A stretch of 50,131 nt of DNA from Candidatus Polarisedimenticolia bacterium (GTDB lineage: Bacteria; Acidobacteriota; Polarisedimenticolia; Gp22-AA2; AA152). The stretch covers positions 1 through 50,131 of the forward strand of contig DASYRE010000060.1 of the NCBI GenBank assembly GCA_036004685.1, given 5' to 3'. Under the pieces are notes generated by a model, which searched no databases, was not told the origin of the DNA, and was given only the letters and a program-made list of their open reading frames with translations. How positions within the stretch are numbered: position 1 is the first letter of the stretch; the number at the start of each line of letters is the position of its first letter. Below, one piece after another: positions 1-28,249 of the stretch. The translations under genes were made by a program, and so were the position numbers.

Positions 1-121
1 TCGCCCGCTTGGCTCGAAGCGAGATCATCAACACGATCTTGACGGATAGGACTCATCGGAACTCCGAGATCATGCTGGAGAGAAGAAAAACTCTCTCAAA
101 TCGCTATTTTTCCGCAGCCTG
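1..121 (+). mobile_element. IS5-family element, right end only
   Basis: These bases match, with a few substitutions, the tail that follows the transposase stop codon at 4439-4575, and also the reverse complement of 49996-50131. The element ends in TCCGCAGCCTG at position 121 and is followed by CTAA, which fits the YTAR target duplication of the IS5 subgroup. The transposase body must lie to the left of the window. The IS sits directly against the stop codon of the neighbouring DUF3024 gene. Confidence 0.8.
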
Positions 122-468
122 CTAACCGAAGAAGCACGAAAACTTGTCCTCCTTCACCGTCTTCAGGAACAGCTTAAGCGTGCCCACCGCTTTGACCGGC
201 TCGTATGAATGCCACTTTAAGTCTGCTCTCTGCCAATAAATCCTCCAAACCCCCAGCCGCTTGTTCCATGTGGCCTTGGCAATTGCGTCCTCATGCCTTT
301 CATTCGGACGCTGAAATGCCGGTCGAATCTCAAACAACTCAACGCTTGTCCCATAATGCGATAACCGAGATCCAGCTTTGACCTGATGTGCACAGGTGGA
401 CGGTTCGCCTCCAGCCACGCATTCAGAACACGCTTGTTTTGTGCGATCTCTATATCAGTAAAAGCCAT
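122..468 (-). pseudogene. DUF3024-family protein, frameshifted
   Basis: Two overlapping frames together give one DUF3024 protein of about 115 residues. The first frame (start 468) supplies the N-terminus ending DLGYRI. The second supplies VELFEIRP, the tryptophan-rich core WNKRLGVWRIYWQRADLKWH and the family's closing CFFG. The family normally reads GQSVE at the join. The DNA near 346-347 has AA where AAA would restore the frame, so a single-base deletion is the simplest explanation. Function of the family is unknown. It is the cassette furthest from the attI-like site, and its stop codon abuts the terminal IS5 copy, so no attC is left for it. The frameshift could be true decay or a sequencing error. 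Confidence 0.75.
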
Positions 469-1426: not shown

Positions 1427-1515
1427 GGCTAACGGCCGCGGCTGAGCTGCGCCGCGCTGGTAAAAGAGCCATCCTACAGTTTACGCGCGGCGTCAGCTCC
1501 AGCCCCTAGTTAGGC
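1427..1515 (-). repeat. attC site
   Basis: Core-like GGCTAAC (1427-1433) and GTTAGGC (1509-1515) flank two complementary arms, GCGGCTGAGCTGCGCCGCGC and GCGCGGCGTCAGCTCC, separated by a loop. This is the imperfect inverted repeat of an attC (59-be). It lies downstream of the DHFR-like gene and upstream of the Mrr-like gene on the minus strand, where a cassette boundary is expected. Confidence 0.85.
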
Positions 1516-1602
1516 AGCGCGAATTCGCATGCTAAGTACGACACGCCAAGCGACCGCTGGCGGCCCGATGTAGAAGGAACGACGACCTGGGAATCATAGA
1601 CT

Positions 1603-2168
<566 letters not shown>

Positions 2169-2184
2169 TATGTGCTCCTGAAGC

Positions 2185-2257
2185 GGGCAACGCTCCGCTG
2201 CAACCGGTTGTTATGCGCCAATGAATGAACGTATTCGGCTCCAAGCCGAAGTTATAC
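2185..2257 (-). repeat. degenerate or chimeric attC
   Basis: GTTATAC (2251-2257) overlaps the stop codon of the upstream cassette gene. It is preceded by CGGCTCCAAGCC, the same half-arm seen in the attC sites at 5241 and 5788. A second core-like GTTATGC lies at 2210-2216, with an unrelated arm, CGCTCCGCTGCAACCGG. The two halves do not pair, so this looks like a site assembled from two attC types or decayed. A short perfect hairpin, TTCGGCTCCAAGCCGAA, lies inside it. Confidence 0.45.
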
Positions 2258-2787
2258 GCCGGCGTCGCCGGCTTCCGGATACCACCATCCGAAAAACTCC
2301 TCAACAGCCTTTGGGCCAAGCTCGAGCACGGCTTCGGCGAGGCGCGTTTGACCCCGCGAGACCAAGAGTGCGGCTGCGGCCGCCTGACCAAACACATGAT
2401 CCCAGGCGTAGCGACTTTGCCGATGCACGGCATCCGCAAGAAGTGAGATTGCTTTCACGTAGCCACCTACCAAATCTTCAGGTATAGGCAGTGCATTCCT
2501 GCTGCCCTGGCGGTGAACCTCAACAGACGCAGGAAACGCAAAGAAATGCCAAGCGCACGGGCCGTCGACTGCCAGCGCGATTCGAACGATATGAGGGACC
2601 GTGGCATAACACGCGTCATACACGGTGCCTTGATGATGAACGGTGCCCCATAAGAACTCCCACGTCTCCTCATCTGCGTGGTGCGGAGCTCGTTCCAGTA
2701 CTCGGAGATATCTGGCACATCGCTCGCGATGCCAAATGCATGGTGTAGTTCAACCCACCGGCCGCTGCTCAGTGACAGGACTTCCAT
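2252..2787 (-). pseudogene. cassette gene of unknown function, frameshifted
   Basis: The likely start is ATG 2787 (MEVLSLSSGRWVELHHAFG). A second frame continues EFLWGTVHHQGTVYDACYA, then TVPHIVRIA, and ends at 2252 in FGWWYP. I recall the LWG.hHQG.VY.A.YA.P pattern from uncharacterised, often HEAT-like, bacterial proteins, but I cannot assign a function. The frames join near 2674-2676, where one missing base (CAG for CAGG) would restore TQDEETWEFLWG. The stop codon overlaps an attC core. The start lies just downstream of the attC at 2799-2884, leaving almost no leader, as is usual for cassettes. Confidence 0.6.
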
Positions 2788-2798
2788 TGCTCCTCGTG

Positions 2799-2884
2799 CG
2801 TATAAAGCTGCGGCGTGCGAGCGGCGGCGGTTCTTGCCGTGTGAGCGCGTGCCGCACGCCGGCAGCTTAATTCGCATGTTATAC
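2799..2884 (-). repeat. attC site
   Basis: The arms AGCTGCGGCGTGCGAGCG and CGTGCCGCACGCCGGCAGCT pair imperfectly around a GC-rich loop. The right core is GTTATAC (2878-2884); the left core is degenerate (GCGTATAA). The arms are close to those at 26227-26321 in the second array, so the two arrays share an attC subfamily. It ends the DUF6883/DUF4926 cassette. Confidence 0.8.
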
Positions 2885-2897
2885 GCCGTGCTCTCGT

Positions 2898-3131
2898 TCA
2901 GGCCGTACGGGTGAGCGGACGTACAGCAACGAGATCGGAGTCAGAGATTGGACGGACGTCTGAGAATTTGAGCGTAACGAGAGCAGTTGTGCGGCCAGAC
3001 GCTGTCACGAACTCGACTTCGAGGCCATCAGGCGGGTAGAGCTCAACCACGGCGCCAAGATCTCCAGCCTTAAGTCCATGAGCAGGGAGGTCCCGGATAA
3101 GAACAACGGTGTCGAGCGCTTGGTAGTCCAT
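2898..3131 (-). CDS. DUF4926 domain protein
   Basis: This 77-residue protein fits DUF4926 along its whole length: TVVLIRDLP..GLKAGDLGAVVE, then YPPDGLEVEFVTASG and the closing SDVRP region, which together look like a small SH3-like beta barrel. It starts two bases after the stop of the DUF6883 gene, so the two are almost certainly cotranscribed in one two-gene cassette. DUF4926 and DUF6883 genes are often neighbours, and the pair is suspected, not proven, to act as a toxin-antitoxin-like module. The frame is intact, unlike the four cassettes beyond it. Confidence 0.75.
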   Translation of the reverse strand: MDYQALDTVVLIRDLPAHGLKAGDLGAVVELYPPDGLEVEFVTASGRTTALVTLKFSDVRPISDSDLVAVRPLTRTA

Positions 3132-3133
3132 GG

Positions 3134-3466
3134 CTACCTCGGGAAAACCGTCACGAGTCGCGGGGGTGCCCCAGGGGTTGGAAGAATCCAGACCGTTGTA
3201 ACCTCCAAGGCAATTCCGCTCGGTCCTCTAAGAATACCCGAAATCGAGTATTTCTGGCCATATTCGCTGGCTTCGCCCAGGATAGCTTCTCCATTCCGAG
3301 CCCGGTCCAGAATGGCGGACCTCAGATCGACCCAGTTCGCAGCGTCGAAGCCCGCCCGGGCGAGGAATGCGGCTTTGAAACGGCCGATGGGGTGGGACTT
3401 CGATAACAGATATTCTCGAACCTTCCGCTCGTCGACGATAGCCCGCTCTGCGTTTGGAAGTTTCAT
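3134..3466 (-). CDS. DUF6883 domain protein
   Basis: The 110-residue protein begins MKLPNAERAIVDERKVREYL, then SHPIGRFKAAFLARAGF, and ends LVTVFPR, which is the DUF6883 pattern (helical start, central GRFKA.FF, then a beta-rich half with TVWIL). Function is unknown. The proline- and glycine-rich C-terminal half and the usual link with DUF4926 suggest a small cytoplasmic partner pair. It is the first gene of a two-gene cassette bounded by attC sites 3500-3593 and 2799-2884. The start codon ATG 3466 is the only sensible one. Confidence 0.75.
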   Translation of the reverse strand: MKLPNAERAIVDERKVREYLLSKSHPIGRFKAAFLARAGFDAANWVDLRSAILDRARNGEAILGEASEYGQKYSISGILRGPSGIALEVTTVWILPTPGAPPRLVTVFPR

Positions 3467-3499
3467 GACCCTTCAGCTTCTCTCAGTGCCATCCAGTGC

Positions 3500-3593
3500 G
3501 TATAACGTTCCGGCTAAGCTGCGGCGCGCGTGCTCAGCCACTCAATCCGGCACCGACCTCTCGCGCGCCGCCAGCTTCAGCCGGTTGTTAGCC
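3500..3593 (-). repeat. attC site
   Basis: GTATAAC (3500-3506) and GTTAGCC (3587-3593) bound the arms GCTAAGCTGCGGCGCGCG and CGCGCGCCGCCAGCTTCAGC, which pair well across a 35-base variable loop. The right core overlaps the stop codon of the truncated cassette gene at 3588. Confidence 0.88.
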
Positions 3594-3757
3594 GGAGCGG
3601 TCCGCCTCACGTACGCCAACGAAACCCTCAGTCGTCACGTCGAACTTCGAGAACCCTAATTCGACCATCGCGCGTTGGAGCGTTGGGGTTAACTCTGTTC
3701 CGTACACTTCCACTTCGCTCCACGGTGGGATGTGCGAATACTCGCCATGATGGAGAT
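3588..3757 (-). pseudogene. C-terminal remnant of a cassette gene cut by IS5
   Basis: A minus-strand frame open from the IS junction reads GDLHHGEYSHIPPWSEVEVY, then GTELTPTLQRAMVELGFSKF, and stops at 3588 inside an attC core. About 56 residues remain. Upstream (higher coordinates) the sequence changes abruptly to IS5 transposase near 3757. The family is not recognised. The piece shows that the IS, or the deletion that removed the IS left end, destroyed the 5' part of this cassette. Confidence 0.6.
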
Positions 3758-4438
3758 CGCCGGCTTCTCTCGGATGAGCACTTCACGGTGGATGGGACGC
3801 TGGTGGAGGCTTGGGCCGGCCACAAGAGCTTCAAGCCGAAGGACGAGGCTGCGAGGAAGCCGCCGGAGGATCCGGGGAATCCGACGGTGGACTTCACCGG
3901 GCAGAAGCGCTCGAACAAGACCCATGCGTCGACGACCGATAAGGACGCTCTTCTTTATCGCAAATCCTTTGGGACCGAATCGAAGCTGTGCTTCGCGGGC
4001 CACCTCTTGATGGACAATCGGCACGGCTTGGCGGTGGACGTCGAGCTGACCCAGGCCACGGGCCTCTCGGAGCGCGAAGCGGCCCTGAGAATGGCGGGAA
4101 GGATTGGCGGCTTCCAGCGGGTGACCCTGGGCGCGGACAAGGCGTTCGACGTTCGCGAGTTCGTTGGCACGCTCCGGGTAATGAAGGTGACGCCTCACAT
4201 TGCCGGGAAGAATGCGAGCTACAGCGCCATCGATGGAAGAACGAAACGATTTGCTGGGTACGTCTTGAGCCAGAGGAAGCGCAAGCGAGTCGAAGAGATC
4301 TTCGGTTGGCTTAAGACCGTCGCGCTGCTGCGGAAGACGCGGCACCGGGGCCTGGCGCGTGTCGGCTGGATGTTCACCTTCGCCACGGCCATCTACAACT
4401 TGGTTCGAATGAAAAACCTGGCGGCGGCAACCGGATGA
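3758..4438 (+). pseudogene. IS5-family transposase, N-terminally truncated
   Basis: The frame reads LLSDEHFTVDGTLVEAWAGH, a middle LGADKAFDVREFV, and RKRVEEIFGWLKT near the end, giving the D, D and E of the DDE catalytic triad. The usual N-terminal helical domain is absent. The open frame upstream of 3758 belongs to unrelated cassette and attC sequence, so the protein cannot start normally and should not be active by itself. It would be mobilisable only by a full copy, which the contig-end IS fragments imply exists nearby. Confidence 0.85.
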
Positions 4439-4575
4439 AGTCGTCCGCGACGCCTCGCCCGCTTGGATCGAAGCGAGATCATCAACACGATCTTGATGGA
4501 TAGAACCCATCGGGACTCCGAGATCAGGCTGGAGAGAAGAGGAACTCTCTCAAATCGCTATTTTTCCGCAGCCTG
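3758..4575 (+). mobile_element. IS5-family element, 5'-truncated
   Basis: The right end matches 1-121 and the reverse complement of 49996-50131, finishing in CCGCAGCCTG at 4575 and followed by TTAG, a YTAR-type target. The left end, with its inverted repeat and the N-terminal third of the transposase, is missing: homology starts abruptly near 3758. It is inserted in the cassette array, opposite in orientation to the cassette genes. The adjoining TTAGGC resembles an attC core site. Confidence 0.8.
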
Positions 4576-4586
4576 TTAGGCACCCG

Positions 4587-5183
4587 TTAACCCCCTGCGA
4601 CCCATTCGAAGACACCCAGAACCCGGCCATCATTCGCGTCGATTAGGACACTTCTACCATCGGCCCCGTACTTACTTTCGTGAAGGGTATTCGACACGCC
4701 CCATACATAGCCGAATTGGCGATTCCAAGTAAAACCCACACTCCATGGCTTGATGCCGGGCTCCAAGCCGGCCTTCCCAGAAACCTCGCGCGCAGTAGCG
4801 TCATTGTAGGGAAAAACGCATTCAAGTGGACTGGCGATGCACGGTGGCACGCCAGACAAGTCTGAGACTTTGCCGTCAGGATCGACAACGCAACTAATGA
4901 CTTCGTCAACGAAGTGGGTTTCGGGCATGCGGAATTTGAACGTTACCATGCAGTAAGGTCGCTGCATATACTCGGCACAGGCTTCCGGGTGCTCGATGCA
5001 ATGGGCAGACGGTGGAAAGTACTTTGCACTTTGCGGACTGATGTACTTCCCATAGAAGTCAGAGCCTACCAGTGCGATGATCGCCTGACTAGCGGGCACG
5101 TAGACTTGGCCACATTCCGGCTCACCACCCCAGATCATTCCCACAAGCATTAGCGGGAGTGCCACGAAGCTAAGGAATCGCAT
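4587..5183 (-). CDS. secreted cassette protein of unknown function
   Basis: I chose the start at 5183 because it opens with a signal peptide (MRFLSFVALPLMLVGMIWGG). The longer frame upstream runs through the attC site at 5241-5304. The mature protein of about 180 residues is cysteine-rich (CGQVYVPASQ, CIEHPEACAEY, CVVDPDGKV, PPCIASPLECVF) and should form disulfides outside the cytoplasm. No family is recognised. It is the third cassette from the attI-like site and is intact. The IS5 copy lies 11 bases beyond its stop and has removed or split its own attC. Confidence 0.65.
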   Translation of the reverse strand: MRFLSFVALPLMLVGMIWGGEPECGQVYVPASQAIIALVGSDFYGKYISPQSAKYFPPSAHCIEHPEACAEYMQRPYCMVTFKFRMPETHFVDEVISCVVDPDGKVSDLSGVPPCIASPLECVFPYNDATAREVSGKAGLEPGIKPWSVGFTWNRQFGYVWGVSNTLHESKYGADGRSVLIDANDGRVLGVFEWVAGG

Positions 5184-5240
5184 GGACGTTTTTGGCCTAC
5201 AAGCAGATGCAGACACCTTGCCGTTTGCTCCTTCGGGTGT

Positions 5241-5304
5241 GCCTAACCGATGCGGGTTGAGCCGCGGCCAGCTTTTGGCCGTCGGCTCCAAGCCGAGGTT
5301 AGCC
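5241..5304 (-). repeat. attC site
   Basis: A compact 64-bp site runs from GCCTAAC (5241-5247) to GTTAGCC (5298-5304), with the arms GGTTGAGCCGCGGCC and GGCCGTCGGCTCC around a TTTT-containing loop. It is almost identical to the next site at 5788-5850. It follows the membrane-protein cassette. Confidence 0.92.
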
Positions 5305-5315
5305 GGCCGTTCGCT

Positions 5316-5762
5316 TCAACCGCGATATTCACTGACCAAGATCCCTACCATTACTATAGCGAGGAGAGGAAGCCACGAGGTGATGAAGTGCAGTGCAACC
5401 TGCTCCTCTGGCTCAAAGTAGGGATTGTAGGTTGTCGTGAAACTCGTACTGTGCCAGACCGCGAACAAGAGCGCCATACCAATGCCTGCGACGAGGCTAT
5501 ACCGCAGCAACTTCCTGCCCCACGACGGGAGCTGACTGCGGCGGAGTTTTTCCAGGAAGAGCTGTGTGGACAGAGCCAGTAGTAAAAGAATCAGCAGGCC
5601 CGGTAATTTGAAGTAGATGAATTGCCAAACTTGGAATCCGACCCCGTTCGCGTACGACTCGGGTGTCTCAGGCAGGGCAAGTTTGGTGCTGACGGTCGCG
5701 TATCCATAGCCAACCGTTAACACGGCCCAGAATAGTACCGTCAACAGCATTGCCCTCGACAT
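5316..5762 (-). CDS. small integral membrane cassette protein
   Basis: The 148-residue protein has about four predicted membrane spans: LLTVLFWAVLTVGYGYA (residues 6-22), LPGLLILLLLALSTQLFL (53-70), YSLVAGIGMALLFAVW (88-103) and LPLLAIVMVGILV (131-143). A basic stretch, KLRRSQLPSWGRKLLR, sits between the second and third. No enzymatic motif is seen and the family is not recognised. It is the second cassette from the attI-like site and is flanked by two nearly identical attC sites, which suggests both cassettes came from one source array. Confidence 0.7.
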   Translation of the reverse strand: MSRAMLLTVLFWAVLTVGYGYATVSTKLALPETPESYANGVGFQVWQFIYFKLPGLLILLLLALSTQLFLEKLRRSQLPSWGRKLLRYSLVAGIGMALLFAVWHSTSFTTTYNPYFEPEEQVALHFITSWLPLLAIVMVGILVSEYRG

Positions 5763-5787
5763 AATCCCTATCTCGATTTCCAGGTCC

Positions 5788-5850
5788 GGCTAACGATGCG
5801 GGTTGAGCCGCGGCGCGCTTTTCGCCGTCGGCTCCAAGCCGGGGTTAGCG
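5788..5850 (-). repeat. attC site
   Basis: GGCTAAC (5788-5794) and GTTAGCG (5844-5850) enclose GGTTGAGCCGCGGCGCGC and CGCCGTCGGCTCCAAGCC. Apart from a few loop bases it matches the site at 5241-5304. The right core contains the stop codon of the first cassette gene. Confidence 0.92.
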
Positions 5851-6315
5851 GGCACGTTCACCCTTCCACGCGACGACAAGAGGGTCCTTGGCCCACGTTG
5901 CGTCATACCTTCCCTCAGCCGTGCAATTGTCCCTGCTCGCGATCGGTAGCAAACTCCAGACATGTGGTGGGATCGTTGGCTCGCCCTTGACCCTTACCGC
6001 TCGGCCGGCAGATTGGACAGTAAGAAACAACCAGAAGACGAATAGCGGATTTGGCTCCCCACCGTGGACAAAATCCATCCAGCCTTCGGCCTGAACCTCA
6101 CCTGCCGTGTTGAGCACCCGTACTCCAGAAAGACTCTCCAGCATCGCATCGGCAAGACTCGTACAGTGACCTTCCTGACAGGATTGAGACCAGTCAATGG
6201 CGAGACCGGAGGGGGTGAGCCCATAGGGCAGCAGGTCATTGAGAAGCTGGCGCTCCACTTCTGACCTCAAATCAGGCCCCATCCGCTCGACTTCATAGGA
6301 CAATGCTCGGTCCAT
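5845..6315 (-). CDS. first-cassette protein of unknown function
   Basis: A 156-residue soluble protein with no signal peptide. Recognisable stretches are an acidic start, EVERMGPDLRSEVERQLLN, and a central GYxFVHGGEPNPLFVFWLF-like segment at about residues 83-98, which may be buried or membrane-associated. No family is assigned. It is the cassette next to the attI-like site. The start ATG 6315 lies only 11 bases from the core site GTTAGCG, with no clear ribosome-binding site, so expression must depend on a promoter inside the leader at 6337-6508. Its stop codon overlaps the attC core at 5844-5850. Confidence 0.65.
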   Translation of the reverse strand: MDRALSYEVERMGPDLRSEVERQLLNDLLPYGLTPSGLAIDWSQSCQEGHCTSLADAMLESLSGVRVLNTAGEVQAEGWMDFVHGGEPNPLFVFWLFLTVQSAGRAVRVKGEPTIPPHVWSLLPIASRDNCTAEGRYDATWAKDPLVVAWKGERAR

Positions 6316-6325
6316 GACAATGTCC

Positions 6326-6508
6326 CGCTAACTAGCTTTGTGCCGATCCCCATTATTTGATAGGGCGGCGGGAATGGCGAGAATAAAAAATAGTGCTGCG
6401 AGGGAGCGTTTCGGAAAGCCGCCTGAATGCAACGCGATAGAGCGCGCGCGACCGGTTTCGGGGACGACTTTTCGCCGAAATAGACTGACCTGTACGAAAA
6501 AATATGGC
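6326..6508 (-). other. attI-like site and conserved leader, copy 1
   Basis: The core CGCTAAC/GTTAGCG lies at 6326-6332. Upstream of it on the minus strand is a leader (6337-6508) repeated at 28043-28215. The blocks shared by the two copies, on the plus strand, are TTTGTGCCGATCCCCATTAT, ATAAAAAATAGTGCTGC and CTGACCTGTACGAAAAAATA. Each copy stands at the same place: at the head of a cassette array and directly beyond the 3' end, or deletion scar, of intI. That is the position of attI and the cassette promoter. I could not point to a convincing -35/-10 pair in it. Confidence 0.7.
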
Positions 6509-6529: not shown

Positions 6530-6700
6530 TCATGGCTTGACCTCTCCGGTGGGTGACGTCGGCGGGCACCCGAGCCGGTCCATCGGGCTGCGGACCGCGG
6601 CGGGTCCGCGGTTGAGGACGTGGGTGTAGATCATCGTGGTGCTCACGTCTTTATGTCCGAGGAGCTCCTGCACGGTCCGGATGTCGTAGCCGTCCTCGAG
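6530..6700 (-). pseudogene. intI: integron integrase, C-terminal fragment
   Basis: The last 56 residues of an integron integrase remain: [20 protein letters not shown] and [12 protein letters not shown], followed by the VRSPMD tail. The histidine of LLGHKDV and the tyrosine nucleophile of YTHV are present. The matching N-terminal part, with the arginine and lysine of the active site, is at 11125-12033 on the same strand, and the break falls inside the ATHLL/LEDGYD junction of the family. The stop codon lies about 20 bp from the leader of array 1. It is therefore one half of an interrupted intI, not a separate gene. Confidence 0.9.
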
Positions 6701-6754
6701 TCGCTTTATCGCTGCCGGATGGTCCAAAACGTGACACCCATGCGCATCGATCAC

Positions 6755-7165
6755 CTATCGTTTGCGCGGGACGGACCTGACCTTGAGCCGGACACCTCCT
6801 GGGAATGCCCAGTGGCGATAGGCCTCGATCCATTCGGCACCTCCAGGTGGCGGGAAAGGCAGTGGCATGTCGAGGATGGGGATGGCCTGCCGGCTCCTGC
6901 CTCGGCGGCAGATTGCGACGATCTCGTCAGCCTGCGTGAGGTCGATCCGCTCCACAGTAACCGTCACTCCCAGCACCAAGGTCTCGAACGGCAGCCCCAG
7001 GTTGTCTTCCAACATCGTCAGGAACCCCGTCTTCTGCTCAGATTCACCATAGGCGTCGACGGTGGCTTCTTTGACGAGCTTTTCTAAGAGAATCTTTTTT
7101 GGTGGCCAGCGACGATCTCCTTTCTCAGAGGCTCGTCGTCCTTTCCTTATACGATTTCGCGTCAT
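6755..7165 (-). CDS. small acidic/basic partner protein of the primase-helicase
   Basis: I chose the start ATG 7165 because it overlaps the helicase stop codon as ATGA, which implies translational coupling. The longer frame, starting at 7198, has no support. The 136-residue protein has a basic N-terminus (TRNRIRKGRRASEKGDRRW). It then reads VDAYGESEQKTGFLTMLEDN, LPFETLVLGVTVTVERIDL and EIVAICRRGRSRQAIPI, and ends GAEWIEAYRHW. Related short proteins are often labelled calcium-binding, but I see no EF-hand. Its role is probably tied to the upstream gene. Confidence 0.6.
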   Translation of the reverse strand: MTRNRIRKGRRASEKGDRRWPPKKILLEKLVKEATVDAYGESEQKTGFLTMLEDNLGLPFETLVLGVTVTVERIDLTQADEIVAICRRGRSRQAIPILDMPLPFPPPGGAEWIEAYRHWAFPGGVRLKVRSVPRKR

Positions 7166-9681
7166 GGGCCTTCTCCCCCCAGGTCGTCGAAGTGACAAGG
7201 AGCCTTCTCGTCATATTCGACGTGGGGTTCGTCGACAGGGTCCGAATAGTTGGAGGGCGGCTCGCCGCGCACATAACCGAGGGCCCGGTATGCTCGCAGC
7301 CGCTTCTCGAACATGCGCCGCAGCACAGGCACCGAACCGTCGACATAATCGAAAATACGCACGGTTGTCTTCCCGGGGCGGATCCGATGCAGGCGACCTG
7401 CGTACTGTGCCAGCGTTCCCTTCCACGAGATTGGCATAGCAAGGAAAAGAGTATCGAGTCTGATGTCGTCGAACCCTTCACCGATGTACCGCCCGGTCGC
7501 AAGGATAAGTCGCTCCTCGTCCTCCGGTATTTCGGCGAGCTGGGTGACGAGCTTCTGCCGCTGCTTGGGGGTTCCACCACCTCGGAGCACGATAAGGTTG
7601 CGGACGAAGCCACGCAGCTTCGCCGCGAAATAATCGAGGTGATCACGCCTCTCGGTCAGCAGGACCGGAGACGCCCCAAGTTCGACAGCCCGAATCACGT
7701 CGTCGAGGACGAGGCGGTTGCGCTGCTCATCGGCCGCCAGAGCCCCGTAAATGTCTTGAATCCCGACCTCATTCGGCACTGCTTTCAGCCAAAAGCTTGT
7801 CTCACGAACGACGAGCTCATATTTGAACAGTTGCCTCGCAGCGGGGCTCTTCGCTTCCACGCAAAAACGTGCGGGTCCGAGCTGCATCTCCAGAATCGGG
7901 TGATGACCGTCGCGGCGATTCGGCGTCGCTGTGAGCCCCAGGACGTATCGTGCCTTGACCTCCGAAAGAACACGCTCGAACGACACAGCCGGGACATGGT
8001 GGCACTCGTCCACGATGACATGTCCGTAGGTGGCGACGATATCGTCGACGTGTTCCCCACGGACCAGACTCTGAATCATCGCCACATCCAAGATACTGTT
8101 GGCATTGCGTTTCCCGCCTCCAATCTGTCCCACTTCCTTCTCGTCGACGCCTAGAAAGGCTGAAATCTGGGCAACCCACTGGTCGAGCAGCGGCCTCCGG
8201 TGAACGAGGATGAGGGTGCTGCGACCCCGTTGAGCGATCAGGTGAGCCCCGAGAACGGTCTTCCCGATCCCGGGGGGTCCGACGAATACGCCGATGTCGT
8301 GGGGAAGGAGTGCCTTTGCTGCGCGCTCCTGGAGCGGTGTGAGCTCGCCGCGAAACTGGAAGCATAATGGTTGGCCCTCGTGACGCTGATCATCGAGCGA
8401 GAGCTTGATGTCATACCTTTTCAGGAGCCCCTCGACCGCGCTGCGGCAGCCGCGTGGCAACGCAATGTGGCGCGGCAACTCCTGGGCGCAGGAGATTACG
8501 CGCGGCGTCTTCGCGATCGAAAGTCGCATCGACTGCCTTCTGTAGAACTCAGGGTTTTGGAAGGCGGCAAGGCGCTTGATCTCGTTGAGCAACGGTGACG
8601 GGACGGCATCCTTGTCGATAAAAAGCCGCTGGGCGAGGACGGCGTTCACTTCGCTTGGCAGCGGCCCGGGAATGGACGAGCGGCCGGAATTGCCCATTGG
8701 CAACTGCCTGCGTGGTTCGGTCCCCTCATCATCCATAGGTTCGGCAATCCTCACACCTACGACCGCATCCCGACGCTCAGCCTCCCGCGCGATCGCCTCG
8801 ACCCCTTCAGGTTCAAGCCTCGGGACCGCCGCGAGGTAGGCCCATTGATCGAGGTAAGGCTCGAACCCCGCATCGAGGAAGACGGTATTCCCGCGTCGGC
8901 GAGCTTCATACTGAAGGGGCAGGGCGATGAGGTTCCCGAAGCCCCCATGTGGCATTGTGTCCTGGTTTGGGAAGAGCCGGTCGTATGAATCCATGCTGAG
9001 CTGGTGTCGACGGGCCATTGTCTCGGTGAGAAGGTGGGATCCCATTTTCCGGGCGAGGGCCGACGGGATGGGGGATGCAAAAAAGAACCAGGCGTGGGCA
9101 CCATTGCCCGACCGGGATCGCTCCAGGGAACAAGGAACTCCCATGATTCGGCAGGTTTCGATGAAACTGGCCACATCTTCCTTCCAAGAAGCCTTGTCGA
9201 AATCGACAGCAAGAAACCAGCATGTAGCGTCGCGGAGCAGTGGGTACACTCCCATTACATGGCGACCCCGGAGGTGACCCAGAACGACCTGGTCGTTTAC
9301 GGAGAGGAAGGCTTGGTTCGGACACTCCCCGCATCGGATTTTGGGAAGCTCGCAAACACCCTTCACGAACTTGTTCGCGCACGCGGGCGCATAGCCCGAC
9401 TGGCCACTTTTCTTGCTTAGGAAGCGGGTTGGGAAGACATCGTCACGCCCGCGAAAGAGGGATCGGAAAAGCGCCACCTTCTCCACAGCTGAGATCGGAC
9501 CCGAAGGGCGATTCACGGCCGAAACGTGGCTGCCCGGAACCTGGAGACGGATGGTGGCCTCCAGCTCGCGTCGTAGTGCCTTCAGACGCTCACAAGATTC
9601 TTTTCGTTCAGAATTGAGTTTAGCGAGGCGGCCCTCTTCCTGGGCGATGAGCGAGAGCAGATCCGCCCTCGTGGACTTCAT
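7162..9681 (-). CDS. archaeo-eukaryotic primase / SF2 helicase fusion (TOTE conflict type)
   Basis: This 839-residue protein starts with a coiled coil (about 10-45). A primase domain of the AEP superfamily follows: a cysteine cluster (CANKFVKGVCELPKIRCGEC, 101-120), the metal-binding DFD (160-162) and GAHAW (195-199). The C-terminal half is an SF2 helicase/translocase with Walker A GPPGIGKT (468-475), DECH (558-561), TATPN (584-588) and motif VI QYAGRLHRIRP. The primase domain is the one I know as the TOTE conflict-system primase, found in mobile systems thought to act against invading DNA. That role is inference. No nuclease domain is visible in the protein itself. It is the centre of the island that splits intI and is coupled to the downstream small gene. 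Confidence 0.82.
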   Translation of the reverse strand: MKSTRADLLSLIAQEEGRLAKLNSERKESCERLKALRRELEATIRLQVPGSHVSAVNRPSGPISAVEKVALFRSLFRGRDDVFPTRFLSKKSGQSGYAPACANKFVKGVCELPKIRCGECPNQAFLSVNDQVVLGHLRGRHVMGVYPLLRDATCWFLAVDFDKASWKEDVASFIETCRIMGVPCSLERSRSGNGAHAWFFFASPIPSALARKMGSHLLTETMARRHQLSMDSYDRLFPNQDTMPHGGFGNLIALPLQYEARRRGNTVFLDAGFEPYLDQWAYLAAVPRLEPEGVEAIAREAERRDAVVGVRIAEPMDDEGTEPRRQLPMGNSGRSSIPGPLPSEVNAVLAQRLFIDKDAVPSPLLNEIKRLAAFQNPEFYRRQSMRLSIAKTPRVISCAQELPRHIALPRGCRSAVEGLLKRYDIKLSLDDQRHEGQPLCFQFRGELTPLQERAAKALLPHDIGVFVGPPGIGKTVLGAHLIAQRGRSTLILVHRRPLLDQWVAQISAFLGVDEKEVGQIGGGKRNANSILDVAMIQSLVRGEHVDDIVATYGHVIVDECHHVPAVSFERVLSEVKARYVLGLTATPNRRDGHHPILEMQLGPARFCVEAKSPAARQLFKYELVVRETSFWLKAVPNEVGIQDIYGALAADEQRNRLVLDDVIRAVELGASPVLLTERRDHLDYFAAKLRGFVRNLIVLRGGGTPKQRQKLVTQLAEIPEDEERLILATGRYIGEGFDDIRLDTLFLAMPISWKGTLAQYAGRLHRIRPGKTTVRIFDYVDGSVPVLRRMFEKRLRAYRALGYVRGEPPSNYSDPVDEPHVEYDEKAPCHFDDLGGEGP

Positions 9682-9894
9682 TCGATTCCCATGCCGGTGC
9701 GACGATCCGGCTCCTATCGACTCGTGTCAGGAAGAGCGTGCGAAATGTCTCAGGGACGTACGTCCGGGGGCGTTCGTTCGCAGTCCGCCGGTCGCCTTCT
9801 CATGGTTTCAGCTTTCGCAGGAGCTTCATCTGCCAGTATCCAAGAAGGCAGTGCACCGACGGACATTCTAAAGGTGCATTTCCCAACGGGAGGA

Positions 9895-10278
9895 TTAAGT
9901 TGCGCCACCATCTCCGATCGGAAGTGGACGCACACGATGGCGACCCTCCTCGATCACGACGACGGCGCCCCTTCCCAGAGCTTCTGAACACTTGTCAAGA
10001 ACGACGGACAGGCGATCGATGACGTGTGCGGTGCGGGTGTTGTGGAGACGGAAAACCACCACGCTCACGGTGCGCCCGCGCGCAAGTGCCGCGATTTCGC
10101 CGAAGTCGAGATCGAAGGTAAGTACGATTCGACTCTCGGCAATCGCCTTCGCGAAGATTTCGCCGTTCGGAAGTCGGTGAAGACCCTCATCGCGGAGGTG
10201 AACCGGCTCGTGACCGTGTTCGCGAAGCCACGTAACGACGCGAACGTCCACACCCATATCCACAAGGAATCTCACCAT
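9895..10278 (-). CDS. DUF5615 PIN-like toxin candidate
   Basis: The 127-residue protein reads MVRFLVDMGVDVRVVTWLRE and later AKAIAESRIVLTFDLDFGEI. This is the DUF5615 (Mut7-C/PIN-like) pattern, with an early aspartate and a later D.DF pair that would bind metal in the ribonuclease fold. It lies 12 bp after a DUF433 gene, the usual antitoxin partner, so the two form a type II toxin-antitoxin pair by analogy. The C-terminal residues beyond about 110 (HRVRPLPIGDGG) are variable. Confidence 0.82.
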   Translation of the reverse strand: MVRFLVDMGVDVRVVTWLREHGHEPVHLRDEGLHRLPNGEIFAKAIAESRIVLTFDLDFGEIAALARGRTVSVVVFRLHNTRTAHVIDRLSVVLDKCSEALGRGAVVVIEEGRHRVRPLPIGDGGAT

Positions 10279-10290
10279 CTTCTCCGCTGT

Positions 10291-10512
10291 CTACTGGGTG
10301 ACGTGGACCTGCTCTTGAGCGAGCCATGCAGCGTATCCGAGAGCCTGCTGAATATCCTCGCGCTCAAGGTCCGGGTATCCGGCCAGGATTTCCTCGAAAG
10401 TGGCTCCATGGGCGATCTGCCCTACGATCACCGAAACGGGGATTCGCATCCCGCGGATGCACGCTCGCCCGCCCAGGATCTGAGGGTCGAAGGTGATCCG
10501 GTCGAACTCCAT
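10291..10512 (-). CDS. DUF433 antitoxin candidate
   Basis: The start ATG 10512 is fixed by AAAGGAGGT a few bases upstream; the longer frame to 10587 has no such site. The 73-residue protein reads FDRITFDPQILGGRACIRGM, then RIPVSVIVGQIAHGATFEEI and LAGYPDLEREDIQQAL. That is DUF433, a small HTH-like fold that serves as DNA-binding antitoxin to DUF5615 proteins. The pair is probably autoregulated at its own promoter upstream of 10512. Confidence 0.85.
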   Translation of the reverse strand: MEFDRITFDPQILGGRACIRGMRIPVSVIVGQIAHGATFEEILAGYPDLEREDIQQALGYAAWLAQEQVHVTQ

Positions 10513-10661
10513 CTTGGCACCTCCTTTGCTGCCTATACTAACCCTCTCCGCGGGTATTTCGCATCCCGCCGGTTCCTTCGTGTTCATAAGGCTCGGAAGC
10601 GAATTTCCGCGCCCTCGAATTTCGGGCGAGTGGCTATCATGCCGGGGCGCCCTGAACGCCG

Positions 10662-11117
10662 CTACTCAAGTTCCGATCGGACCGGCTTGGGAGATTTCCG
10701 TTCCAGGAACATTTTCACCTTTTCACGAAATCGCTTTGGGGGGCTCGTTGCCCCGGTTTCCCAACGGGCTATTGTGCAGCGATCCACGCCGATCAGAATG
10801 GCCAGCCGTTCCTGTGAAATCGCGAGGGATCTCCGGCAGGCAGTCAGCCTCTCGCCTAGGTCTTCAATCTTCTCAAGAGCCTGAACCCCCAGGAACTCGT
10901 TGAGCTTAGGCGCTACCCACCGCGCCGGAGCAATTCCACGACGCTCCCAGTTCTCCACGCTCTTCTTGTCGACGCCCAGCACCTTCGCCAGCTTCCTCTG
11001 ACTCAGCCCCAAGTCCATCCTGCGCTTCCGAATCCGGTCCCCAAGGGTCCTGACTTCACGAGGGTAGCCCGTCGGCAGCCGCTTCTGTCCCCGGAGGGTG
11101 ACATGGCAAAAAGGCAA
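10662..11117 (-). CDS. tandem XRE-type HTH regulator
   Basis: Two helix-turn-helix domains are visible: RTLGDRIRKRRMDLGLSQRK with LGVDKKSVENWE (about 23-60), and LGERLTACRRSLAISQERL with IGVDRCTIARWETG (about 87-122). The N-terminal CHVTLRGQKRLPTGYP segment is shared by many relatives, so the protein is nearly complete. However, its only upstream start is a TTG at 11117, very close to the island boundary, and the start may have been altered by the insertion. It overlaps the out-of-frame tail of the intI fragment. It probably controls the conflict genes of the island. Confidence 0.75.
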   Translation of the reverse strand: MPFCHVTLRGQKRLPTGYPREVRTLGDRIRKRRMDLGLSQRKLAKVLGVDKKSVENWERRGIAPARWVAPKLNEFLGVQALEKIEDLGERLTACRRSLAISQERLAILIGVDRCTIARWETGATSPPKRFREKVKMFLERKSPKPVRSELE

Positions 11118-12033
11118 CGCCTTGCAGCAGATGGGTCGCGAAGGAATGCCGGAAGGTGTGGCAGCTGGCGGGCTTGGTGATCCCGGCCCGGCGGACGGCC
11201 TTGAAGACCTCCCGCTGGATCGCCGATTCGTGGAAGTGATGGCGCCGGACCTGCCGGGCCCGCGGTTCCGCGTACCGCCGCGAGGCGGGGAAGACCCATT
11301 GCCAGCTCCAGTCCCGGCCGGCCTGGGGATATTTCCGCCCCAGGGCCTCGGGTAGCTCGACCCAGCCGGCGCCGAGCAGGAGATCGGCTTGATGCTGTGA
11401 CCGGACGAACTCCAGGTGCCGCCTCAGCCTCTCCTGCGCGATGGCGGGGAGCAGCGTCACGCGATCCTTGTTCCCCTTGCCGCGCCGCACGATGATCTGG
11501 CTGGCACCGAAGTCGACGTCCTTGATCCTCAGGCGCAGAGCCTCGGTCAACCTCAACCCGCCGCCATAGAGCAGCGTCACGACCAGCCAGGGGATTCCGC
11601 CGAGATGCCCGAGGATCGCCCGCACTTCGTCGCGGGCGAGGACCGTTGGAAGCCGCCGGGGCCCGCGGGCCCGGACGAACCCTTCCAGCCAGGCGAGGTC
11701 GCGGCGCAGCACCGTGCCGTAAAGGAACAGAAGCGCGCATAGCGCCTGGTTCTGGGTCGAGGACGCCACTTTGTGGTGAATGGCGAGGCTGGTCAGGAAA
11801 CGGGTCACTTCCTCCTGGCCGAGCGGGGAGGGATGGCGCTTGCCGTGGAAGAGGATGAACCGCCGGATCCAGCCGACGTAGGCCTCCTCGGTCCGGGGGC
11901 TGTAATGCTCGGCGCGCAGGCGCCTGCGGACTTCGTCGAGGAACCTCGGTTTGTCCGCGGAGGGCCGCGAGTCGGGAGTGATGACCAGGGGCATCGGCAC
12001 GGTGGTGTCGGGGGAGTCGAGATGGGCGATCAT
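11056..12033 (-). pseudogene. intI: integron integrase, N-terminal fragment
   Basis: Starting at ATG 12033 (MIAHLDSPD), the frame follows an integron-type tyrosine recombinase for about 303 residues. It has the core-binding domain (about 30-125), the active-site arginine in GGGLRLTEAL (R161), the lysines of GKGNKDRV, the extra IntI segment with LPEALGRKYP and WSWQWVFP (about 226-270), and HTFRHSFATHLL (292-303). Homology stops at about 11125. The remaining residues to 11056 (VAFLPCHPPG...) are island sequence. The missing end, with the catalytic tyrosine, is at 6530-6700. The fragment alone cannot be active. A conserved promoter lies upstream at 12088-12116. Confidence 0.9.
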
Positions 12034-12040
12034 TCGAACC

Positions 12041-12120
12041 CCCGGGGAAATGGCTCTCCTGGCTCGGAATGGGGGCGCGTTGGTGAAACTATACGCCGCC
12101 GGAGGCTTTGGCGCAAGGAC
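12041..12120 (-). promoter_or_regulatory. intI promoter region (Pint), copy 1
   Basis: On the minus strand, TTGCGC (12116-12111) and TATAGT (12093-12088) are spaced by 17 bases, about 55 bp upstream of the intI start. The surrounding 80 bp (GGCTCTCCTG, CTCGGA, GAAACTATA, CAAGG) recur at 28250-28330. This shows that the second array once had the same integrase promoter. Confidence 0.7.
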
Positions 12121-24453: not shown

Positions 24454-24539
24454 TCACGGATGGATGAAGGCGCTTAGTCCGCCTACTCATGATTGACCAG
24501 GGCCGAGGTGATGTATCCGATTACCAGCCGTGAGGCTAG

Positions 24540-24600
24540 CGTATTGCCCCGTTAAGGAGTCGGCCGTTCTGCGGCTGGTCGCCTTTAAGGGCGGGCTAGG
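24540..24600 (-). repeat. degenerate attC
   Basis: The plus strand reads CGTTAAGGAGTCGGCCG, a short loop, then CGGCTGGTCGCCTTTAAGGG and GGGCTAGGC. The arms GTCGGCCG and CGGCTGG pair partly. The right core is GCTAGGC instead of GTTAGGC and lies inside the last codons of the membrane-protein gene. Probably a decayed cassette end. Confidence 0.45.
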
Positions 24601-25076
24601 CAGCAGGTGCACTTGCCAATGATCCATCCAGTGCCTGCAAAAAGCACCAGGTAAGCGATCCCGGGTATTAAATGGGCGGCCAATGTCTGAGGCTGCCCGG
24701 GAAAGGCGCTAGCACTCCGAACCAAGTCGACCTCCTCGACCGTGTAAAACCAGTGATACGTGCGATTGCTCGCTATGAGGGCATGCAGGATCCGCAAGAA
24801 TCCGAATACAGAAAGTGAACTGACGGCAGCGCTAACTGCGGCGGGCACACCCGGGGATGACGGGACCACATAATTGCCTAGAACGATCAGCCAGCCAATT
24901 GGAGCGATTGTGATGGTAAGCATGGACACGGCGATTCTCCAGGCGACCCGCTGGCGATCCTCGCCTTTCCGCCAGAGCGATGCTGTATCGAATGCCCTAA
25001 ACCGCGACGCCCCCCCGAGAGCAAGCGCCCAGAAGAACGCATAGAAAAAGAGGAGGGAGTTCGTTCCGTTATCCAT
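24585..25076 (-). CDS. cassette-borne membrane protein of unknown function
   Basis: The 163-residue protein has about four membrane segments: SLLFFYAFFWALALGGAS (7-24), ISVMLTI-like helix with APIGWLIVLGNYV (45-70), VSAAVSSLSVFGFLRILHAL (82-101) and LIPGIAYLVLFAGTGWIIG (136-154). It ends in CTCCLARP. No family is recognised. It lies between a clear attC (25099-25158, belonging to the upstream FRG cassette) and a degenerate one, and so is the most distal gene that can be placed in array 2 with some confidence. Confidence 0.65.
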   Translation of the reverse strand: MDNGTNSLLFFYAFFWALALGGASRFRAFDTASLWRKGEDRQRVAWRIAVSMLTITIAPIGWLIVLGNYVVPSSPGVPAAVSAAVSSLSVFGFLRILHALIASNRTYHWFYTVEEVDLVRSASAFPGQPQTLAAHLIPGIAYLVLFAGTGWIIGKCTCCLARP

Positions 25077-25098
25077 AAAGCATCATCATATCTTGGCT

Positions 25099-25158
25099 GC
25101 CTAACGTGCGCGTTCACCAGCGCCGTTCTCCGGCGCCGGCTGCAACGCAAGGTTATGC
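25099..25158 (-). repeat. attC site
   Basis: A compact 60-bp site from GCCTAAC (25099-25105) to GTTATGC (25152-25158), with the arms CACCAGCGCCG and CGGCGCCGGCTGC around TTCTC. It lies 10 bp after the FRG gene on the minus strand. Confidence 0.9.
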
Positions 25159-25167
25159 TTTGATCCG

Positions 25168-26205
25168 TTAGCGAGCGGCATCCTCCTCCTTGGAAGTTCG
25201 TACAAGGATGACTACTCCCTTGAGGGTCTCAATGAACGCCTGCTTCTTTGTCTCCCAATCGTCACGCATCTTTGCGAGCGTGGCCGGATCGGCAGGCGAT
25301 GCTACTTCTGACTCGAACCTGACGTCATTCTCCGCCTCAATTTGACGCAGTACCTCCTGCATGTCTTTCGTGCCGATATCGAGCCCGTTGCGCGACAGAT
25401 CTTCGATGGTCGCGATGCCATTTGCAACGGGAAGAAGGCGAGAGTGCTTTATCGCCGTCGCCCACTCTTGCAGCGGATCAACCGGCATCAATGCCTCGCC
25501 GCCATCAAACAGATCCAGCAAGCGCTCGCCGAGTGCAGCCGAGTGATCAAATGAAACGGCTTCGACCACAGGAAGGTCCTCGAAATCTTCCCCAAGCATC
25601 AACTCCATTGTCCATGCCCATTGGGCATGTGGTCGCGCAAATGGTTGCAGATCAATCCACTTGATCCGACCGAATCCGATCGCCTCATTGGAGCCAACCC
25701 AGTCGACGCGATAGAGGATTCCCCGGCCCTTGGTCCTTGGCTCCCACCGGCCATCGCGTAGCTCACAACACGCGAAGAACAACGCGACTTCCATCGATTC
25801 GGTCAAGTCGATGTAGCCGGTAGCCAGTTCGTAGTGCTGGGCAAGCGCCGTCCGGTCGAGTGCATATCGTTCGCCCCTTGCCCATTCGAAGACGGGATGA
25901 GACTTCAGTATCTCTGCGTACCAATTGACGCGAATCAGGTCAGCAACAAGGCGCAGCTGTTCGTGCGGCTCCAGTTCGCCAAGAGCCCTTGCCCTTGTAG
26001 TCATCCCACGGGCAATAGATGCTGTGCAGGACCAGTATCGGCGACTCTGGCCCCTGTACAAGTATCGGATTCCATGCGACGGCGCTAATCCCCTTTCTCC
26101 GTCGGGGTTCTGCCACCAAGTCCACGCGCGCTTTACTTTTCCGACACAACCATGCTGATCGATCCAGGCTAATAACGTCGAGTGAGGGACGTAGCCGAGA
26201 TTCAT
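25168..26205 (-). CDS. FRG-domain protein
   Basis: The 345-residue protein has IRYLYRGQSRRYW (the YRGQ/FRG motif, about residue 50), HPVFEWARGER, ALAQHYELATGYIDLTESME (the family's QH.G..T...D.T) and VALFFACCELR. FRG domains occur in mobile and phage-defence genes; their biochemical action is not established. The C-terminal 100 residues (helical, AENDVRFESEVASP) look separate. The ATG at 26205 is preferred over the one at 26211, since AGGAG is eight bases upstream of it and only two from the other. Intact cassette in array 2, bounded by good attC sites. Confidence 0.85.
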   Translation of the reverse strand: MNLGYVPHSTLLAWIDQHGCVGKVKRAWTWWQNPDGERGLAPSHGIRYLYRGQSRRYWSCTASIARGMTTRARALGELEPHEQLRLVADLIRVNWYAEILKSHPVFEWARGERYALDRTALAQHYELATGYIDLTESMEVALFFACCELRDGRWEPRTKGRGILYRVDWVGSNEAIGFGRIKWIDLQPFARPHAQWAWTMELMLGEDFEDLPVVEAVSFDHSAALGERLLDLFDGGEALMPVDPLQEWATAIKHSRLLPVANGIATIEDLSRNGLDIGTKDMQEVLRQIEAENDVRFESEVASPADPATLAKMRDDWETKKQAFIETLKGVVILVRTSKEEDAAR

Positions 26206-26226
26206 GTGCATCTCTCCTGATCGGAA

Positions 26227-26321
26227 GCATAACGCATGGTCAAGATGCGGCGTGCGAGCGCCGACGCATCCTGCCGTGCGTGAGCGTGCCGCACGCCGTC
26301 AGCTTAATGCGCTGGTTGGGC
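26227..26321 (-). repeat. attC site
   Basis: From GCATAAC (26227-26233) to GTTGGGC (26315-26321). The arms GATGCGGCGTGCGAGCG and CGTGCCGCACGCCGTCAGC match those of the array 1 site at 2799-2884 closely, with a longer loop. It marks the boundary between the FRG cassette and the next one. Confidence 0.85.
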
Positions 26322-26656
26322 CGCTCACCTTCAGTCGAAGAAGCCCAATACCTCATCTGACCACTCATGACCTGCCGACGAAAACCCGCCCGCAGCAGGT
26401 TTCGGTAAACCCCGTGCGGCAGTAGCCTCGACTTTTCACGAAGTCGAAAGCGGCATGGGGATAGCCGTTAATTCTGAGGATGACACTAAACCGCCGACCC
26501 CGTAAACGCCTTGGGTTCCGCACCCCGGAGGAATGCTATGTCCCCTGAACCCTTTTGTTGCACTTCAAGGTTGATATCAAACCGCTCCCAGGAGCACGGC
26601 CTCGCCCTCGCGCTCACCCTCGACGTACCGTAATTTCTGCCAGAACCGCATGATTC
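26322..26656 (-). other. cassette segment with no intact gene
   Basis: These 335 bases follow the SnoaL-like gene up to the attC at 26227-26321. On the minus strand, short open frames near the attC look like the end of a lost coding region, but none is complete. On the plus strand the middle carries the end of an IS30-type transposase (separate entry). The region is best read as a decayed cassette invaded by an IS. Confidence 0.5.
26480..26580 (+). mobile_element. IS30-family remnant (3' end)
   Basis: The frame from 26480 reads MTLNRRPRKRLGFRTPEECY and stops at 26546-26548. This is the closing LN.RPRKRLG(F/Y)RTPEE signature of IS30 transposases. It is followed by TTGTTGCACTTCAAGGTTGA, resembling an IS30-type terminal repeat. 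Only about 100 bp remain; the rest of the transposase and the other end are gone. Confidence 0.7.
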
Positions 26657-27121
26657 CTATTGCGTGGTCATCAGCGAATAGTGATTCGCCACCAGCTGCC
26701 ACCTCCCGTCCGTCATGACCCAGACGCGCGTGAAACGGTTTTCGCGCGGGACGTCCTTGCCCTTGTCCTGTCCGACCATCGTGGAACGACCGGTCTCCAC
26801 CACGGTATTTCCATACACGCGCACGCGAACCTCGGCGGTGGTGATGGATTGGTACGTCAGCGCATGCGTTGTGAAGTCAGCGATGACCTCTGCCTTGTTA
26901 CGCACGACGCCGGTCGGTCCGATGCCGAGAAAGTCATCGGCATAGATGCGGCGAAGCGCGATGGTGTCGGCAGCGATCTGCGCGCGAATCCGCTCCTGAT
27001 CCTGCTGCTGAACGGCCTGCTTGGTACTCGCCGCATCCCGTGTCCGTGCGCTCTGCTGCTGCGCGATGGTGCTCGAGACGGCCGACAGCACGAGCGCAGC
27101 GATGATCGACGTTCGTTTCAT
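26657..27121 (-). CDS. secreted SnoaL/DUF4440-like protein
   Basis: The likely start is ATG 27121 (MKRTSIIAALVLSAVSSTIA), which opens with a signal peptide. The mature 130 residues read IAADTIALRRIYADDFLGIG, NKAEVIADFT and RFTRVWVMTDGRWQLVANHY. This is the cone-shaped NTF2/SnoaL fold of DUF4440 proteins, with the family-typical aspartate of DDF and a W at the end. No catalytic role can be assigned. It is the second cassette from the attI-like site of array 2. Its own cassette end is blurred by the IS30 remnant. Confidence 0.85.
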   Translation of the reverse strand: MKRTSIIAALVLSAVSSTIAQQQSARTRDAASTKQAVQQQDQERIRAQIAADTIALRRIYADDFLGIGPTGVVRNKAEVIADFTTHALTYQSITTAEVRVRVYGNTVVETGRSTMVGQDKGKDVPRENRFTRVWVMTDGRWQLVANHYSLMTTQ

Positions 27122-27313
27122 TAGACCCTCCATAGGAGCCGGATCGTAAGCTACTGCGGGTAGAGATGGCTGCGTCCAACGGCCGGTGGGTTGGCATTAG
27201 GGTTCGCGCCGGGCATGTAGCGAGCCCGCATTTGCCGGAGTGCCTTACGTCGTAATTCATCGACAACGCGTCACAGTCTCGTGTCGCATGGTCGAGTCGT
27301 CGGAACGGGTGCG

Positions 27314-27376
27314 GCCTAACGATTGCCATTCAGCCGCCGGCTGATTTTGCCGGTCGGCTGCAAGGGCGGGTTAGAC
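27314..27376 (-). repeat. attC site
   Basis: From GCCTAAC (27314-27320) to GTTAGAC (27370-27376), 63 bp, with the arms CAGCCGCCGGC and GCCGGTCGGCTG around TGATTTT. It is the cassette end of the gene at 27381-27890, whose stop lies five bases away. Confidence 0.92.
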
Positions 27377-27380
27377 CGCT

Positions 27381-27913: not shown

Positions 27914-28215
27914 GTCTAACTAGTCACAATGGAACGACCGGCTCCGATTCGCAGCGTCGAAGGTTACGCTGCGGGTCGGACGACCAACGTAGCGCAGAGC
28001 TACATGCGAAAGGAGCTGGTCGCCCCGATCGCCTCCCACCGATTTGTGCCGATCCCCATTATTTGATAGAGCTGCACGGACGGCGAGGATAAAAAATAGT
28101 GCTGCAAGAGTCTTTTCGGGAAAGCTCCTTGCAATCCAAGGACATACGATGCGAGAGCGCTCTTTCATCGGAGTCTTCCGCCGAAATAGGCTGACCTGTA
28201 CGAAAAAATAGGGCC
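27914..28215 (-). other. attI-like site and conserved leader, copy 2
   Basis: The leader at 28043-28215 repeats 6337-6508 with the same conserved blocks (TTTGTGCCGATCCCCATTAT, ATAAAAAATAGTGCTGC, CTGACCTGTACGAAAAAATA). Unlike copy 1, about 120 bp separate it from the first core site, GTCTAAC (27914-27920). That spacer contains CCGATTCGCAGCGT and ACGCTGCGGGTCGG, which can form a hairpin. Both copies keep the bases CTA next to the core (CTAGTTAG on the minus strand), so the spacer may be an insertion or a remnant cassette. Confidence 0.65.
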
Positions 28216-28249
28216 GCGTGGGAGGGCGGGACGGGCTTTCATAAAGACT

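Follow-up and report, generated by a model that had tools for sequence, protein, structure and literature searches.

Attachment-site platforms without an integrase gene accompany a chromosomal integron in a Polarisedimenticolia genome and recur across its order

Introduction

In class 1 integrons the attachment site attI1 carries the IntI sites L, R, DR1 and DR2, and mobile integrons can contain delta-attI cassettes, in which the attC is replaced by a truncated attI, as outlined in PMC12901181. Treponema-type integrons, as summarised in PMC3607928, have intI transcribed toward attI and one attI per integron. Arrays of attC sites without intI (CALIN elements) occur at several chromosomal loci (PMC9024848, PMC8618304, PMC12444791); they are described as common and of debated origin, with off-target insertion, loss of intI and rearrangement put forward (PMC8618304), and their origins and mobilisation in trans are discussed in PMC8618304, PMC12444791 and PMC9668308. 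In the account of IntegronFinder 2, attI sites outside class 1 are poorly described and are not detected (PMC9024848), so CALINs headed by an attI would be missed. Among open-access titles and abstract openings (subscription papers and preprints aside), we found no description of intI-less arrays headed by an attI and a promoter.

Here we analyse a leader element from a window of 50,131 nucleotides (the whole stretch of DNA under study). Like attI1 of class 1, the element adjoins intI at the start of an array, has a GTT core and, in some copies, upstream direct repeats; unlike attI1 as outlined in that source, it comprises three blocks over ~175 bp, accompanies a co-oriented intI and occurs in several copies per genome, most of them without intI. 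As in the Treponema type, intI and the cassettes run in one direction and attI lies downstream of intI, but here intI-less copies stand at other loci. These solitary units resemble CALINs in being intI-less attC arrays that occupy several chromosomal loci, and differ from them, as described, in that an identifiable attI, in most cases together with a promoter, stands at their start; they are CALINs headed by a promoter and an attI. Like delta-attI cassettes they place attI sequence away from its usual position, but here a whole attI region heads the array.

Results

Leader copies and conserved blocks

We refer to the genome of the window as G000 (C60 is the window contig, and C46 and C11 are other contigs of the same genome), to a genome from another genus of its family as G001, and to three genomes of a sister family as G004, G005 and G007; the order sample comprised 12 genomes. 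The sequence-only reading had described two conserved leader copies with identical blocks and variable sequence between them, and this description held. The sequence CTGACCTGTACGAAAAAATA is present exactly at 6485-6504 and 28191-28210 and nowhere else (0 expected, from 100 shuffles), so that the two leader copies are offset by 21,706 bp. They contain two ungapped repeats, one of 83 nt (82% identity) and one of 43 nt (91%). Over its ~175 bp the leader at 6327-6512 matches C60:28043-28218 (78% identity, E 3.0e-28) and C46:909-1097 (76%, E 1.2e-30), and a profile search recovered a fourth, diverged copy at C11:3381-3428 (E 9.8e-6). The genome holds at least four leader/attI regions, three of them without intI.

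Among three G000 copies the blocks are 90–96% identical and the spacers between them 49–69%, and among the G001 copies the corresponding figures are 92–100% and 56–67%, in both cases with the blocks picked on the same alignments. When blocks defined on G000 were tested on two solitary G001 copies (C245 against C97), the values were 0.91 versus 0.57 (p 6e-7). Conservation of blocks within a genome while spacers diverge points to selection, and because the G001 copies all lack intI, it seems that either the sites were retained to serve an integrase whose gene lies elsewhere or intI was lost late.

Block 2 is a direct repeat of block 1 (Table 1). The repeat was reached in none of 60 shuffles for array 1, G005 and G007 and in 3 of 60 for array 2, and it was not significant against shuffles in C46, C11, G001 and G004; a repeat profile from the sister family (f2, built from 18 of its 21 repeats) did not find the blocks in the window's family. 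The conserved blocks could plausibly be accessory sites bound by the integrase. By eye, two loci of another genome of the order (G006 C40, L079, and C103, L073) show three near-tandem direct repeats of ~26 bp ending at the core, clearer than the repeats in the window's family.

Where block 3 differs between G000 and G001, it does so mostly at third codon positions, as would be expected if it encoded a leader peptide or another short product (SNNGDRHK...) and were not a DNA site. We rejected this origin and consider it very improbable, given that the frame is broken in C46 and G001, that the copies share no start, and that in G004, G005 and G007 the corresponding position has no reading frame for SNNGDRHK....

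Table 1. Positions of leader, core, integrase, promoter and attC features in the window, and membership of the two classes of unit.
Feature	Position	Strand	Basis or detail
attI core of array 1, GCTAG^TTAGC; first cassette begins here	6327..6332	-	sequence; CTAG^TTAG also in C46, variant in C11
Leader block 3, adjoining core, CTATCAAATAATGGGGATCGGCACAAA	6337..6363	-	27/27 bases same in copy 2; variant in 3/3 G001 copies
Leader block 2, CAGCACTATTTTTTATTCTCGCC, direct repeat of block 1	6376..6398	-	sequence comparison
Leader block 1, CATATTTTTTCGTACAGGTCAGTCTATTTCGGCG	6473..6506	-	sequence comparison
intI C-terminal piece, 74-aa frame, TIGR02249 positions 245-315, TAG within stretch	6530..6754	-	profile match
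intI N-terminal piece, TIGR02249 positions 1-274, 365 bits, co-oriented with array 1	11056..12033	-	profile match
Promoter-like pair upstream of intI, TTGCGC-17-TATAGT	12088..12116	-	pattern
Array 1 attC: 5787-5851, 5240-5305, 3499-3594, 2788-2885, 1427-1516; weak 2185-2258	1427..5851	-	covariance models
Promoter-like pair of solitary array-2 unit, TTGCGT-18-TATAGT, 248 bp before GGCACAAA	28299..28328	-	pattern
Second leader copy, solitary, without intI, downstream of topA (Pfam)	28043..28218	-	sequence match
Displaced core of array 2, CTAG^TTAGAC, ~117 bp from leader	27914..27920	-	sequence
Array 2 attC: 27313-27377, 26226-26322, 25098-25159, 24533-24602	24533..27377	-	covariance models
intI-linked units			G000 array 1, G004 C109, G005 C117, G006 C40, G007 C13
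Solitary units			G000 array 2, C46, C11; G001 C180, C245, C97; G004 C8, C22; G005 C139, C109 (no core); G006 C103; G007 C48, C18; G011 C22

Array 1 and its divided integrase gene

On the minus strand, array 1 reads promoter-like pair, N-terminal part of intI, an insertion of ~4.4 kb, C-terminal part of intI, leader, core and cassettes; the cassettes of both arrays lie on the minus strand, which corrects the earlier account. The proposal that the leader is the attI at the recombination end is supported: it follows immediately on the intI stop at 6530, has a GTTAG core with attC arrays behind it, and has the same layout next to intact intI in relatives. By the definition of attI as lying between intI and the first cassette, array 1 and its order relatives qualify and the solitary copies by definition do not. 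Array 1 lacks the intact integrase of a complete integron, its N- and C-pieces being ~4.4 kb apart, and since this interrupted gene is the sole intI of G000, an intact enzyme is absent now.

Two genes were recognised in the ~4.4-kb insertion that splits intI (window 6712-11122), an HTH gene and one for a protein of 839 aa that combines AEP-TOTE primase and helicase domains (a TOTE conflict system), and in G002, from another genus of the family, intI is broken at the same codon and a related HTH gene is present. Within array 1 there is an IS-like element with a transposase-like frame (window 1-124 and 4455-4578; 3530-4438), and because an end of this element is also the start of the contig, array 1 probably continues.

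Array 2, solitary units and attC sites

The earlier claim that the leader stands at the start of both arrays held for array 1 and needed qualification for array 2, where the order is topA, promoter-like pair, leader, ~117 bp of other sequence, core and four attC sites. With the last block (28043) ~117 bp from the core, the attI there looks split; the intervening sequence (window 27926-28042, between GGCACAAA and the core) contains inverted repeats. C46 and C11 repeat the array-2 layout behind different genes. Four attC sites and an intI piece 16 kb away place array 2 among CALINs, defined by at least two attC and no neighbouring intI.

Two covariance models, trained on attCs identified by visual inspection, recovered the attC sites of both arrays; a first scan by duplex threshold had been too strict, and long and short attCs aligned poorly with each other. 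The training sets held most array-1 sites and three of the four array-2 sites, so independent support comes from the site at 24533-24602 and from sites in other genomes. Arrays 1 and 2 have the same attC subfamilies (D2, D5) in common. Every solitary unit with more than 650 bp behind its core (9/9) is followed by attC sites; the units with none in view are G007 C18, G001 C180, G001 C245 and G005 C139, with 9–618 bp behind the core, and G005 C109, which has no core. At G000:C31:174500-175298 (L051) lies a cluster of attC sites whose boxes are degenerate and for which no leader could be recognised.

A predicted promoter upstream of intI rather than within the leader

The suggestion of a cassette promoter inside the leader is not supported in that form: a weak consensus match on the cassette strand is present in copy 1 only, and there is none in copy 2 or C46. 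Instead, the best-supported predicted promoter is upstream of intI, where the pattern TTG-N19..22-TATA[AGT]T occurs in 5/5 regions (G000, G002, G004, G005, G007). The same pattern is found in 10 of the 14 solitary units, 172–357 bp before the core in the nine of these that bear a core (array 2 being measured to GGCACAAA), and is absent from the three G001 units and G006 C103. Its null is at most 0.0015 per region, for 15 regions comprising the five with intI and ten solitary ones (seven positive); three further solitary units, G004 C22, G005 C139 and G011 C22, are positive. In blastn comparisons the promoter and 5′ UTR of intI aligned with C46 (E 7e-6) and with array 2 (E 0.002), and C46 retains the start-codon region of intI.

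Recurrence within the order

Allowing at most two mismatches, the block 3 pattern occurs in only two genomes, G000 and G001 (three copies), of the 396 that sample the phylum. A scan of genome_contigs with the same block gave six matches in unrelated taxa, at about chance level and with at most a weak score, and viral_contigs gave none. In the sister family, G004, G005 and G007 each have one intact intI pointing at the array and preceded by TTGC..TATAGT/TATATT, and in each the leader runs up to a GTTA core; their leaders recur at G004 C8, G005 C109, G007 C48 and G007 C18.

Of 60 genomes searched at E ≤0.01 with an attI-end model trained on 13 copies, seven gave a match; these seven belong to the 12 sampled from the order, and the 48 genomes outside it gave none. 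The five held-out places (G011 C22, G004 C22, G006 C103, G005 C139 and G006 C40, a set that excludes the weaker G005:C36 and G006:C196) each lie beside attC, a promoter-like pair or intI. The idea that the leader could serve as a probe for integrons lacking intI is supported within the order, where 5/5 opened places adjoin a part of an integron, and fails beyond it (0/48 genomes). Short matches in G049 and G051 were set aside as chance: the former is inside a coding-looking stretch where no attI core was seen, and the latter falls where a signal-peptide-like gene begins.

Attachment-site platforms without intI are an order-wide trait: there are 14 solitary units (one truncated, G005 C109, where the contig ends after the promoter and first repeat) in 7 of the 12 order genomes. 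The GTT core is in place in 11 of the 13 that have a core region; that of array 2 is displaced and that of G011 C22 is CTT. Among the genomes searched for the integrase gene (G000-G005, G007, G009), a single intI passed the cut-off in each of G000, G002, G004, G005 and G007, the genes of G000 and G002 being cut short at one and the same codon; none passed it in G001, G003 or G009, and no genome searched had more than one. Likeness between attI regions is 0.74–0.75 within G000 (array 1, array 2, C46) and 0.77–0.85 within G001, and 0.52–0.62 between these two genomes of different genera; the attI tree resolved two families and one pair only.

Discussion

With anatomy, copy number, attC adjacency and block conservation directly observed, we consider it likely that the G000 leader is the attI of a chromosomal integron with its promoter upstream of intI, and that three platforms without intI were filled in trans. 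The attI region would consist of blocks ending in the crossover core, with intI and cassettes co-oriented, and activity of the promoter upstream of intI, which we infer, would probably drive both. In three G000 regions intI would have disappeared, whereas promoter, array and blocks (the latter diverged in C11) were retained, and these regions would probably have been filled by the one integrase of the genome while it was intact, through predicted IntI binding and service in trans. In favour of this reading are the closer likeness of attI copies within G000 and within G001 than between the two, the attC subfamilies common to arrays 1 and 2, and the alignment of C46 and array 2 with the region preceding intI. 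Several features speak against this reading: intI of G000 is broken, array 2 has a displaced core and the C11 copy has diverged; the promoter pattern is absent from G006 C103 and from all three units of G001, and G001 has no intI over the cut-off; and the direct repeats are insignificant in most copies and the C31 attC cluster has no leader.

The same solitary units could instead be dead remnants of separate complete integrons that each lost their own intI and received no service in trans, an account that we rate somewhat below an even chance. Retention of the intI start-codon region in C46, the broken intI of G000 and G002, the divergence of C11 and the splitting of array 2 all fit such decay, as does the resemblance of a solitary attI to that of another genome (G007 C48 scores 0.80 against the intI-linked attI of G005 and 0.29 against that of G007 itself). 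Yet IntI queries translated in the correct frame (G004, G005, the N- and C-pieces of G000, and G002N) found no intI remnant in the ~700–800 bp upstream of the 14 solitary units, and blocks were kept while spacers diverged among G001 copies that all lack intI.

The genes flanking solitary units differ from unit to unit (topA, VgrG-like, MFS transporter, Phenol_MetA_deg, ArgJ, M20 peptidase, DUF309 and others), and two G001 units have ~12 bp in common at their left edge, as might be expected if promoter, attI and array moved as one unit, through IntI acting at secondary sites or through unrelated transposition, and landed behind unrelated genes. Visual inspection showed neither terminal repeats nor target duplications, and we regard such movement as unlikely.

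Returning to filling in trans, the presence of several attI sites, most with a promoter and without intI, means that one enzyme may have fed several scattered collections. A tentative extension, which we would not favour over its negation, is that the integron in this order is distributed, with one intI and two to four promoter-plus-attI platforms that would each build and express an array in trans. If the platforms do work in trans, a cell could have several first positions expressed simultaneously, and the unit would be defined by attI, not by intI.

As to cargo, the first cassette of the C46 array (L004 226-906) encodes a HEPN_AbiU2-domain protein, and the array-2 cassettes include SnoaL-like and FRG-domain proteins.
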